Assembly: GCF_003315205.1 (NCBI RefSeq)
Contig: NZ_QNRR01000007.1
Coordinates: 248,001 to 312,000 of the forward strand
Reading direction: 5' to 3'
DNA: 64,000 bases
Source: Roseimicrobium gellanilyticum
Lineage (GTDB): Bacteria; Verrucomicrobiota; Verrucomicrobiia; Verrucomicrobiales; Verrucomicrobiaceae
A program made the position numbers and the translations under genes. The notes under the pieces were generated by a model that had not been told where the DNA came from, made no database searches, and saw nothing but the letters and a program-made list of their open reading frames with translations. Below, one piece after another: positions 11,879 to 15,670 of this stretch. How positions within the stretch are numbered: position 1 is the stretch's first letter; the number at the start of each line of letters is the position of its first letter.

Positions 11879-13168
11879 CTAAAGTGAGCTGCTGGCGATG
11901 CTCCAGGCTTCACTTGCCGTTGCAAACACCAGGCGGCCCTCGCGCGCACGTCTGGCGAGAGATAGCGCATTCTCCACGAAATCTTCCCAGGTTGGGAGCG
12001 CTACGAGATTTGAGCGAATGACGAATGCCAGATGCGTAGGACCTTCGGCATCGGCCGCGGATGACTGGCTCAGGAGGCGATCGAGTTCTTCTTCGAAGAG
12101 GACATTTGGCAGCCACGGGCTCAACGAGCCCTTTTCATAGGACGTCAGTGGAAGGATGCCAAGGCCGGTCGAATTCTCCGGGTCTGCAATCCTGAAGTCC
12201 TTGGCGGAAGGTCGGTAGGCGCGAGAAGGGATGGATGTTCCATCGGGAATGACGCCTGTGCCGCGCTCCGCCTCCACCAAGCGTGCGACTTCTGGCATCC
12301 GCTCCAAGGTCACGTCTACCTGAACGCCTTCTTGCTCAAGGATGCGCACGACCGCATTACTTAGATAACGATCCCCGCCGCGATAAGAAGCCGGCGTCTT
12401 GTCGAGAGCTCTCCTATAGGCCTCAATCGCGGAGCGGACGCATGAGGTGACCCACGCTTCGTCAACGTGATCCTGAAACCATTCGTTAGCCTGCTCATCC
12501 CATCGCCACGGGTGCACATGCAGGCCTATCTCATCTCCTTCGCTCAACATGGAGTTCCACTCTTCTTTGAATTGCTCGAAGGCCCAGGTGGCGCTTCCAT
12601 TGGACTTCTCCACTTGCGGATCAGCTCGGGGAAACCAGGTGAAGTGAACGGGCGCTCCGCCTGCGACAGCGCTCAATAGACTGCGAAAGGCGGACGTCCT
12701 CCTGAAAAATTCCGAGGTGGATTGCCACGAGGCATCGCTTGGCTCAACCACGCGAGCATCCGGCTCCACGTCGACGCCGAGGATTGTGGGGATCGCCGGC
12801 CCTGTGTAAGGGGAAGCTGCCGCTCTCGTGAGGCTCAACCGATCCAGCAGTTCGATACGGGAGCGGCGCATCTCCGACAGGTGGGACTGAAGCCTTTCCA
12901 TCTCGCGAAGCCGGGCCTCGCATAGCTGTATGAGTGCAGGGTCGGCTTGGGCTGTGACGCTTGAGTGCGAGCTCTCTATCACGGTCAGTCGAGCCTCACA
13001 GAGCGCTTCCAACTCCGCTGCTCTGCGACTTTCCGCGTCGAGCTTGGTTCTCAACCGGGTCACCTTTTCCTCCACCCGCTTCTTTTCCTCCTTTGCCTTC
13101 GCCAGCGAGCTCTTCAAACGCTCCACCTCCGCGTGGTGGCGGGATTTTGAAATGAAAGGGAATTTCAT
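11879..13168 (-). CDS. Coiled-coil protein with polysaccharide-deacetylase-like domain
   Basis: A 429-residue protein in two parts. Residues of about 10-115 are a long heptad-type coiled coil rich in Glu, Lys, Arg and Leu. From about residue 130 there is a NodB-like fold: TILGVDVEPDA resembles the first metal-binding Asp motif and EIGLHVHPWRWD the His-x-His motif of carbohydrate esterase 4 proteins. Later, TPASYRGGDRYLSN resembles the RxGG-type loop. No signal peptide is seen, so it may act in the cytoplasm, for example on nucleotide-sugar or glycan precursors, or be inactive. The ATG at 13168 lies only about 20 bases from the decayed toxin tail on the opposite strand, and the gene may have arrived by the same rearrangement. 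A sugar deacetylase role is inferred, not shown. Confidence 0.7.
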   Translation of the reverse strand: MKFPFISKSRHHAEVERLKSSLAKAKEEKKRVEEKVTRLRTKLDAESRRAAELEALCEARLTVIESSHSSVTAQADPALIQLCEARLREMERLQSHLSEMRRSRIELLDRLSLTRAAASPYTGPAIPTILGVDVEPDARVVEPSDASWQSTSEFFRRTSAFRSLLSAVAGGAPVHFTWFPRADPQVEKSNGSATWAFEQFKEEWNSMLSEGDEIGLHVHPWRWDEQANEWFQDHVDEAWVTSCVRSAIEAYRRALDKTPASYRGGDRYLSNAVVRILEQEGVQVDVTLERMPEVARLVEAERGTGVIPDGTSIPSRAYRPSAKDFRIADPENSTGLGILPLTSYEKGSLSPWLPNVLFEEELDRLLSQSSAADAEGPTHLAFVIRSNLVALPTWEDFVENALSLARRAREGRLVFATASEAWSIASSSL

Positions 13169-13543
13169 CGTGACGATGGGTTAGCGACCATGCATGGGCC
13201 GCCGGCGGATGATGCCCTCCGCGACACGTATAATTGGCTGGATTGCACAGTGAACATTGAGATTGTGAAGGATGATGGGGTCACGGTGACTCGGAGTGAG
13301 GAGTCGACGATGGATACCCGGGGAAGGCGGGCAAGGAACTGCATCATATCACGCCTAAGTACCTAGGCGGTGCCCCTGTGGGTCCCACTATATTGCTGGA
13401 TGCTGCCTACCATCAGCTGATCACGAATGAGTTCCGGCGATTGGCTCCATACGGACATACCACGTCCAGATCCCACCGGAGTGCAAAGAATTATGAAAGA
13501 AGTTTATTCAAAGTATCCATTGCCACCTACAAATTGGTTATGA
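13169..13543 (+). pseudogene. Decayed C-terminal tail of an Rhs/polymorphic toxin (HNH-like LHH motif)
   Basis: Coding-like sequence without an intact frame. Reading in frame 2 from 13190 gives PPADDALRDTYNWLDC and so on, then the frame must shift near the G-run at 13318-13323 to read GKAGKELHHITPKYLGG and YHQLITNEFRRLAPYG (13330-13455). A second shift near 13456 returns to frame 2 and gives PTGVQRIMKEVYSKYPLPP before a TGA at 13541-13543. These pieces, in this order, look like the end of a polymorphic toxin whose LHH motif suggests an HNH/endonuclease VII-type nuclease. No toxin body is present upstream; the opposite-strand gene starts at 13168. The TGA overlaps the ATG of the next gene (ATGA), which is expected of a toxin-immunity pair. 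Two compensating indels could be decay or assembly errors. Confidence 0.65.
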
Positions 13544-14385
13544 GAGAAACGTGTGAGTTCCGTGTCGTTGAGGAGTTTGCTCCTCAACTTTTTGAATCTA
13601 CCGAGGGGAAACGTTTGGGTGATTCTGTTAGGAAAGTTGAGATTGCGACAGACGATCCTCGATTTAGTGCTGTAGGACGACTGCAGTTGGAAACTAGGTC
13701 AAAGACGGATCGTTCGTTCTTTTACGGATGGAATATCCGACGACGTTACTCGAAAACGGAACTCGACAACGCTGTACTCTTTCTACTCAACGTAACCTCA
13801 GTTTTTGAACCCGCGGGCGAGGAGTGTGGGACGAAGTACGATGACTCAACGGCTTGCCCACGCTGTGGCGCTGGAGCCATGCAAGCCACTTCGCTTTTTC
13901 TGCCTGAAAGCCGAATTCCGAAGACCAAGGAGATTAGCAAGACAATCGGGGGTGAGATTGTGGTCTCGCAGCGGGTAAAAGAATTGTTTTTGCGGCACGA
14001 CGTTACTGGCGCAGCATTGTTGCCTCTTTGCCCCAATTCGTCGTCAAGCGCGGAATCCAATGCTTGGTTCCAGCTAGGGGTGTTGGAGGCCAATGCCGAA
14101 GTCATCGCACCAACTCGCGTCGGTATCGATCCATTTGACGATGACGTGAAAGGCGAGTGCCGTTGTCCACTCGGTGATCTAGTCGGGCTCAATTTGCTCT
14201 CTGAGGTAACAATCACGTCTGGCTCGCGCGGTGAGGCGGACATCTTCTGCACGCGGCAGTTTGTCGGAGTTAGACGTGGATTGTTACGGCCGGAGCGAAT
14301 CATCCTCATTTCACCCAAAGTCTGGAGGGTGCTCGTATCTGAAAAGATCAAGGGTGTTGAGATCGAAGTCGCACATATTGCATGA
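13540..14385 (+). CDS. Immunity-like protein with CxxC cluster
   Basis: A 281-residue soluble protein starting at the ATG at 13540, which overlaps the stop of the decayed toxin tail. The longer open frame from 13378 is rejected as a start because its first 54 codons belong to the toxin remnant. The middle has EECGTKYDDSTACPRCGAG, a Cys arrangement that may bind zinc, and a later GECRCPLGD. It resembles double-CxxCG proteins found beside Rhs-type toxins in myxobacteria and relatives, but I name it only as immunity-like. Base composition from about 13390 to 14390 is visibly lower in GC than the surroundings, consistent with horizontal transfer. Its TGA overlaps the ATG of the next open frame at 14382. 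If the toxin is dead, this would be an orphan immunity gene. Confidence 0.6.
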   Translation: MRETCEFRVVEEFAPQLFESTEGKRLGDSVRKVEIATDDPRFSAVGRLQLETRSKTDRSFFYGWNIRRRYSKTELDNAVLFLLNVTSVFEPAGEECGTKYDDSTACPRCGAGAMQATSLFLPESRIPKTKEISKTIGGEIVVSQRVKELFLRHDVTGAALLPLCPNSSSSAESNAWFQLGVLEANAEVIAPTRVGIDPFDDDVKGECRCPLGDLVGLNLLSEVTITSGSRGEADIFCTRQFVGVRRGLLRPERIILISPKVWRVLVSEKIKGVEIEVAHIA

Positions 14386-14700
14386 AGCAACAAGTGGAGA
14401 GACCCGACGTCTCCGGCCAATTCTTTCTCGTACGCTATGTCGGCTGCATTGCCGCGGCAGCTTCACTTGCAGCCTCCGCCCAGGACAAACCGGACCCCGG
14501 CGCGGCGGAGTTGAAGAAGGCGATGACGGAGTTGGTCGGGACCATCAAGGATGGGAATGATGCGAAGATTGCGGAGTTGGAGGGGAAGGTGTTGCCTGAT
14601 GCGGAGAGGATTGGGAGGGGCTGCGTGTGATGTCGGGATGAAGTGCCATCTCTTCTACTGGGATGGTACTGGCTGGAGCATGCTGAGGCCTTCGGTGTAA
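14382..14700 (+). pseudogene. Internally deleted copy of the small secreted protein downstream
   Basis: The open frame 14382-14630 encodes a signal-like segment (VGCIAAAASLAASAQ) followed by DKPDPGAAELKKAM and VLPDAERIG, nearly the same as the intact gene at 14786. After IGRGC the frame breaks; the next bases, 14629-14700, encode DVGMKCHLFYWDGTGWSML in another frame, which matches the very end of the intact gene. Roughly 265 bases present in the intact copy are missing, plus one G in a G-run. The first ATG overlaps the stop of the immunity-like gene (ATGA), so this was the third gene of that unit. It may still yield an 82-residue secreted peptide. Confidence 0.75.
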
Positions 14701-14785: not shown

Positions 14786-15385
14786 ATGAAATCCGAAATG
14801 CCTTTCACTAGGAAACATGGCGCCGCACCTTGGGAGGTCATCCTTTGTGTCATACTTTTTGTGGTCGCAGCTGCACCCACCCCCGCCCAAGACAAACCCG
14901 ACCCCGGCGCGGCAGAACTGAAGAAGGCGATGATGGAATTGCGTGAGGCCATCAAAGACGGGAATGACACGAAGATTGTGGAGTTGGCGGGGAAGGTGTT
15001 GCCGGATGCGGAGAGGATTGGGAAGGGGCTCGGAGCGGGGGCTGGGGAGGGGAAGGAGAAGGTGGTGGCGTTTCATGCGCGGATGCCGAAGGATGGGCAG
15101 GCGCTGGCGAGGTTGTTTGCGGTGAAGCCGGCGCAGACGGAGGTGCAGGTGCATGGGTCGACGACGGAGGAGATGGCGGCGTACGAAAATGGGTCAGTGG
15201 CGGCGAAGGAGTTTCCAGCGGCGGTGAAGGCGCTGGCGGAGAAGGGGGTGTTCGTGCCGGGGAAGACGTATTATGAGGTGGAGTTTCTGGAGCCGGGGAA
15301 TGATGTGGGGATGAAGTATCACCTGTTCTACTGGGATGGGAGTGGGTGGAGCATGCTGGGGCCGGTGTGGAGGATGGTACAGTAG
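14786..15385 (+). CDS. Small exported protein of unknown function (intact paralogue)
   Basis: A 199-residue protein with a signal peptide (WEVILCVILFVVAAAPTPAQ) and an otherwise soluble mature part. I chose the ATG at 14786; an in-frame start at 14747 adds residues without signal character, and 14798 is a further option. Visible segments are DKPDPGAAELKKAMMELREA, an amphipathic helix, then a central part with FVPGKTYYEVEFLEPGND, and the end DGSGWSMLGPVWRMVQ. It is a duplicate of the deleted gene just upstream; the 5' halves match at most positions. I do not recognise the family. Its link to the toxin-immunity unit suggests a role around the toxin, such as a periplasmic immunity or accessory factor, but this is inference from position only. 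Confidence 0.65.
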   Translation: MKSEMPFTRKHGAAPWEVILCVILFVVAAAPTPAQDKPDPGAAELKKAMMELREAIKDGNDTKIVELAGKVLPDAERIGKGLGAGAGEGKEKVVAFHARMPKDGQALARLFAVKPAQTEVQVHGSTTEEMAAYENGSVAAKEFPAAVKALAEKGVFVPGKTYYEVEFLEPGNDVGMKYHLFYWDGSGWSMLGPVWRMVQ

Positions 15386-15511
15386 GTAGTCAGTAGTCAG
15401 TAGTCAGTAGTCAGTAGTCAGTAGTCAGTAGTCAGTGGTCAGTGGTCAGTGGTCAGTGGTCAGTGGTCAGTGGTCAGTGGTCAGTGGTCAGTGGTCAGTG
15501 GTCAGTGGTCA
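15386..15511. repeat. Heptanucleotide tandem repeat, 18 copies
   Basis: Eighteen perfect 7-base units follow the stop of the preceding gene without a gap: seven copies of GTAGTCA (15386-15434), then eleven copies of GTGGTCA (15435-15511), followed by a G-run. The one-base difference is confined to a single switch point, which suggests growth by slippage from two founders. Because seven is not a multiple of three, all frames give a 7-residue peptide repeat, which creates a false open frame here. Confidence 0.98.
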
Positions 15512-15670
15512 GTGGGGGTGGGGGTGGTGTGATGGTTTTGGACTACGGAGTGGGAGTGAGCCTTGGGGTGGGAGGATCGGTGCTGGGCTTTGAAGTGGTG
15601 GGTGAGAGGCTTTTTGGGAAAGATTCTCCTTTGTTGACCAGCATCCGCGCCCCTCTACTCTGCGCGGCTC

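Follow-up and report, generated by a model that had tools for sequence, protein, structure and literature searches.

Orphan modules of the rhs-CT/rhsI and cdiA-CT/cdiI kinds are on record (PMC3150448; PMC3967940), and in CDI systems orphan toxin-tip/immunity modules with a still-working immunity gene have been documented (PMC3150448). In Vibrio, effectors displaced from T6SS clusters leave orphan immunity genes behind (PMC5361080). Then there are the immunity proteins themselves. Imm11 genes adjoin Tox-AHH, Tox-HNH, and Tox-SHH toxins, with Verrucomicrobia among the hosts (PMC3482391). In Myxococcus xanthus, the AHH nuclease MXAN_0050 has MXAN_0049 as its immunity protein (PMC12077131), and according to a commentary, Imm11 and the double-CXXCG family share the clan CL0767 (PMC12077181).

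The window analyzed here is a stretch of 64,000 nucleotides from Roseimicrobium gellanilyticum (contig C7, 248001-312000, of a 7.93-Mb draft genome in 32 contigs). It holds what is very probably an orphan immunity gene joined to a degenerate remnant of the toxin that it once neutralized. Like the rhs-CT/rhsI and cdiA-CT/cdiI orphans, the locus has the arrangement by which an orphan module is recognized, a truncated C-terminal toxin fragment without a delivery body, then an intact immunity gene. Unlike them (their tip is usually whole from the VENN/core boundary), it retains only about 72 codons of the toxin, and these are frameshifted. As in the Vibrio T6SS orphans, the immunity gene has outlived the effector, but those are arrayed at the original cluster, while here there is a single gene at a site that is empty in a sister genome of the same genus. 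The features of the locus are these:

11879 to 13168, minus strand: left flanking gene, 429 aa, same position kept in the sister genome
13190 to 13317, plus strand: first frame of the sequence-only reading (MHGPPADDALRD...DTRG), an unassigned segment that matches no toxin tail
13315 to 13461, plus strand: toxin-tail stub, piece 1, YPGKAGKELHHITPKYLGGAPVGPTILLDAAYHQLITNEFRRLAPYG (HH...AYHQ-ITNEFR), matching the L003 Rhs tail, with its motif in seven other tails
13463 to 13543, plus strand: toxin-tail stub, piece 2, in another frame, RPDPTGVQRIMKEVYSKYPLPPTNWL and a TGA stop, with matches to L003, L005, and the tail profile
13540 to 14385, plus strand: intact, very probably orphan immunity gene, 281 aa, with 16 homologs and a predicted Imm11/double-CXXCG-like fold
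14382 to 14700, plus strand: tandem copy of the gene downstream, truncated and with an internal deletion, in two pieces 86% identical (DNA) to 14789-15385
14789 to 15385, plus strand: right flanking gene, 198 aa from the ATG at 14789, same position kept in the sister genome (203 aa)

Bases 13315-13543 correspond to the last 72 or so residues of an Rhs-type polymorphic toxin, with one frameshift inside. The match covers 13315-13455 in one frame and 13466-13522 in the next, placing the shift between about 13456 and 13466. By tblastn with the tail of the intact Chryseolinea Rhs protein at L003, the first piece shows 60% identity over 48 aa (E 6e-14) and the second 47% over 19 aa (E 0.03); the second is also 55% identical over 20 aa to the tail at L005 (E 1.6e-4). 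Aligned as a whole, both pieces are 54% identical to the L003 tail. A two-row tail profile, in which the window is itself one of the rows, picks up the two pieces (E 1.5e-25 and 3e-7) when run over the whole host genome and nothing else there; no intact copy of the same tail, for which the sequence-only reading had suggested a search, turned up in the host by this profile. That reading had joined three successive frames into one toxin-like tail, with possible indels near 13318-13323 and 13456. Its middle and last frames hold up by tblastn and profile, as does a shift at about 13456-13466. Neither a toxin tail nor a family in Pfam or NCBIfam matches the first frame (13190-13317, PPADDALRD...), and the host genome offers no credible second copy of it. 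Since it has no support as toxin, the first junction falls away and a single frameshift would be enough to account for the stub. The best genome match to the first frame as a possible Rhs body was an autotransporter-like repeat protein, judged to be chance.

The toxin body is absent, as had been noticed from the sequence: RHS repeats and Rhs core are lacking upstream of the tail in the window, and the opposite-strand gene starts at 13168. With the body absent and the last 72 or so codons frameshifted, no toxin can be made from the stub. Pfam and NCBIfam give nothing above cut-off for the window's pieces, and the plasmid, phage, and IMG/VR collections hold no relative of the tail or of the immunity protein. 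An Rfam search gave no match. Elsewhere in the host there are ten Rhs-core hits, on contigs C2, C3, C8, C22, C24, and C27 (L036-L041, L043, and L044 among them). Several of these sit close to the end of a contig or on a small one (C22, C24, C27) and resemble Rhs cassette clusters. None of the host's Rhs-core loci carries the window's tail.

What sort of toxin was this? Conserved across the tail alignment are E-x-HH-[IV]-x-P-K-Y, then D-A-A-Y-H-Q-x-I-T-N-x-F-R-x-x-W-x-Y-G, and at the C-terminal end V-Y-x-x-[YF]-P-L-P. The HH and the H of AYHQ are both conserved, the latter about 22 residues after the former, and two histidines with a third about 22 residues on is the pattern of HNH/EndoVII-type toxin tails. 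The LHH motif had been read as the sign of an HNH-type nuclease. The three histidines agree with this, the canonical central N of HNH is not conserved across the alignment, and the assignment is by motif: the tail would be a small HNH/EndoVII-like nuclease. The case is strengthened by the immunity partner, whose predicted fold resembles the antidote of an HNH-superfamily nuclease. The tail has no Pfam match, and a two-sequence tail profile bears a weak resemblance to the HNH region of a group II intron maturase (E 0.17). Its predicted model is poor (pLDDT 52), and a fold search with it gave no useful match. A nine-tail profile brought up only PDCD6IP chains in the PDB (E 0.1-0.25), judged to be chance, and in other genomes of the phylum the tail had four matches too weak to accept (L026-L029, E 0.003-0.008).

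The stop of the tail (TGA, 13541-13543) overlaps the ATG of the immunity gene (13540), as first read, and the gene is intact, open over 281 codons. Relatives were sought by scanning the 281-aa protein against 85,000 species genomes, which gave six loci, with further ones coming from searches of 1982 genomes. The resulting family has 17 full-length members, the 16 homologs being 27-62% identical to the window protein. The cysteine cluster that had been remarked upon is a property of the family (C96, C106, C109, and C209 are nearly invariant across the 17), and the window protein keeps all of the nearly invariant residues. Against its homolog L002, the gene diverges by 0.28/0.24/0.63 at codon positions 1/2/3, a substitution pattern typical of coding sequence.

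An AlphaFold2 model of the protein, of middling confidence (pLDDT 76, pTM 0.72), finds its best fold match in MXAN_0049 (6A4C; Foldseek E 1.2e-4; VIA Z 9.9, 4.3 A, 179 residues aligned). The next VIA row has a Z of 5.9, leaving 6A4C as the one clear match among solved structures. The suspicion that the protein is immunity-like is supported by its predicted fold, whose match is the solved structure of an antidote to an HNH-superfamily nuclease. The likeness to MXAN_0049 (Imm11, PF07791) extends to a downstream position of the immunity gene and to a partner that would be an HH-type nuclease. Unlike MXAN_0049, the window protein has an extra N-terminal region and a cysteine cluster, and identity in the structural alignment is 16%. 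It also falls below the Pfam gathering score: it has no hit to Imm11 at E 0.1, 13 of the 17 family members match weakly at E<=0.1, and the best relative reaches 20.4 against the gathering score of 22.1 bits. The myxobacterial SitI6 double-CXXCG proteins (TIGR02264/PF09535) have in common with it the clan CL0767 (PMC12077181) and a cysteine cluster. They differ from it in that it has one CXXCG motif (C106-C109, plus C96 and C209) in place of two and that an Rhs tail takes the part that a SitA6 lipoprotein has there (PF09533 and TIGR02269 give no match). The window protein has no hit to the SitI6 models at E 0.1; three of the 17 members match TIGR02264 weakly (best E 2.4e-4), none of them shown above the curated cut-off. 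A PF09535 search of the host's own genome gave a sub-threshold match elsewhere only. Judged by the predicted fold, and in keeping with these weak matches, the family is related, though divergent, to the Imm11/double-CXXCG clan.

Then there is the evidence from other genomes that tail and immunity gene belong together. The tail lies directly upstream of eight of the 17 aligned immunity genes (window included), as two long intact toxins and six stubs, and the pairing is spread over the window's host, planctomycete-related genomes, and Bacteroidota genomes. At L003, in Chryseolinea, an intact Rhs protein of 1646 aa, which has both RHS repeats and an Rhs core (TIGR03696, E 1.3e-13), ends in GKVEFHHIEPKYLGGPKNGSLIPINASYHQQITNAFREAWSYGSRHPNAAELNRIMKDVYNQFPLYVPF, and 12 bases after its gene there starts a homolog 40% identical to the window's immunity gene. 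At L078, in Bacteroidota, a frame of 2003 codons with SpvB-, TcdB-middle-, and RHS-type regions and an RHS repeat has the same kind of tail, directly followed by an immunity homolog. The view that the stub and the immunity gene come from a toxin-immunity pair is supported by these intact Rhs-type proteins.

The remaining cases are L005, L071, L079 (twice), and L080, where only the last 43-69 or so tail codons remain, directly upstream of the immunity gene. The six stub loci, the window included, come from several phyla and retain the last 43-74 or so codons, always from DxAYHQ through the stop. Nine of the 17 have no tail upstream (L002, L004 twice, L007, L070, L072, L077, the second copy at L078, and L081), with the limit that a stub below about 30 codons would be missed. 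Chance survival and detection bias can explain why short stubs recur. It is rather improbable that the 3' end of the toxin gene acts in cis for the immunity gene, as promoter, translational coupler, or leader; if it did, displacement would be viable only where that end was spared. Longer alignments had suggested relaxed selection on the stubs, an idea dropped once the codon-position test of stubs against immunity genes was restricted to the homologous part, where no difference reaches significance (Fisher p 0.10-0.22). Two of the loci, L079 (G1204 C71) and L004, are tandem arrays of the immunity gene, and at L079 each copy has its own toxin stub in front. The array copies are separated by an unassigned gene of about 245 aa (the L004 copy has no Pfam match), and the arrays look like polyimmunity loci in Bacteroidota.

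Where did the cassette come from? The sister genome (G788), which is complete, runs colinear with positions 1-27421 of the window, most long blocks being about 78-86% identical. Between the two flanking genes it has 445 bases, as against 1620 here, with no trace of the cassette. The fall in GC content that had been noted through the immunity-like gene is real: GC drops to about 0.48-0.49, and the immunity gene has a GC3 of 0.52, compared with 0.62-0.76 in three neighboring genes. The closest immunity homolog, 62% identical, is in a MAG labeled Kuenenia, among planctomycetal-looking neighbor genes. Because the cassette is absent from the syntenic genome and its GC3 is low, it was likely acquired horizontally after the split of the two lineages; loss from the sister lineage is a conceivable alternative origin. 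The sequence-only reading had offered an orphan immunity locus left after toxin loss or a displaced cassette. An orphan with a stub it is, very probably, but since the sister genome lacks the cassette, what arrived was probably a cassette or a remnant of one, not something left by a toxin gene ancestral to the site. The toxin may have been lost before or after arrival.

I propose that the original module comprised the C-terminal tip of an Rhs-type polymorphic toxin (HH...AYHQxITNxFR) and an immunity gene coupled to it by ATGA, and that it was inserted, probably from a lower-GC donor, between two conserved genes. With the toxin body missing and the tail frameshifted, the immunity gene is the part of it that is intact. 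The ATGA overlap suggests that translation was formerly coupled to that of the toxin; without it, the immunity gene may be silent, or may rely on some weak site that it has itself. In the manner of Imm11-clan proteins, its product most likely attaches to the nuclease tail of related Rhs toxins sent by neighboring cells and blocks it, a role suggested by fold, clan, and gene order.

It may be instead that the gene is a passive leftover of horizontal transfer, unexpressed or unselected and not yet decayed. No Shine-Dalgarno sequence or other obvious ribosome-binding site is seen upstream of 13540, and the gene may therefore be poorly translated without translation of the toxin. Nor was a promoter-like site found upstream on the plus strand, weak evidence as this is. 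(A perfect 9-bp inverted repeat and T-run at 13567-13588, in the 5' part of the gene, is terminator-like and not above shuffled expectation.) The frameshifted tail and the decayed gene copy adjoining the cassette are also what a relic would show. However, 281 codons have stayed open with every nearly invariant residue kept, despite the frameshift in the adjacent tail, and I consider a dead relic unlikely, if well worth bearing in mind.

Two other views fare worse. The frameshift puts the LHH segment in the frame of the immunity gene, hence one open frame of 361 codons, from which a fusion of toxin tail and immunity protein, 335 aa from the GTG at 13378 (ORF 13378-14385), might be made and have a function. 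It is hardly to be believed: there is no in-frame ATG, GTG, or TTG ahead of the HH motif, so the fusion would lack HH, no homolog has such a fusion, and it is unremarkable for 28 or so out-of-frame codons to stay open. Rhs repeats are a known cause of assembler collapse, and one might imagine a complete toxin gene lost in this way from a 32-contig draft in which Rhs core hits lie close to the ends of contigs. It is very improbable, since the left gene is kept to its start codon and sits where the sister genome has it, no toxin body separates it from the stub, and five more short stubs precede homologous immunity genes in other genomes. Sequencing error could explain the frameshift but not the missing body. 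An orphan immunity gene with the stub of its toxin, then, is the reading I prefer.

An orphan toxin-tail/immunity module is a well-understood kind of genomic leftover, and the locus leaves the general understanding of polymorphic toxins unchanged. What it adds is a concrete pairing of two uncatalogued gene families, covered by neither Pfam nor NCBIfam above cut-off: a tail of the form HH...AYHQxITNxFR...YPLP and a four-cysteine immunity protein, by its predicted fold of the Imm11 clan. It also shows movement of tail/immunity modules across phyla and to their frequent survival as immunity gene plus toxin stub. Two new family models could be built from them, for better annotation of hypothetical proteins.

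The right-hand bound of the cassette is the truncated gene copy, whose ATG (14382) overlaps the stop of the immunity gene, again as ATGA. Since this partial tandem copy of the right-hand gene adjoins the cassette, the site has been rearranged. The host genome holds no further copy of it elsewhere. The right flanking gene is 72% identical (aa) to its counterpart in the sister genome. The tandem (14382-14700 and 14789-15385) is of a secreted-type protein gene, in no Pfam family, that is single-copy in the sister genome. Just past the right flanking gene, at 15389-15515, the heptamer GTCAGTG is repeated in 18 near-perfect tandem copies.
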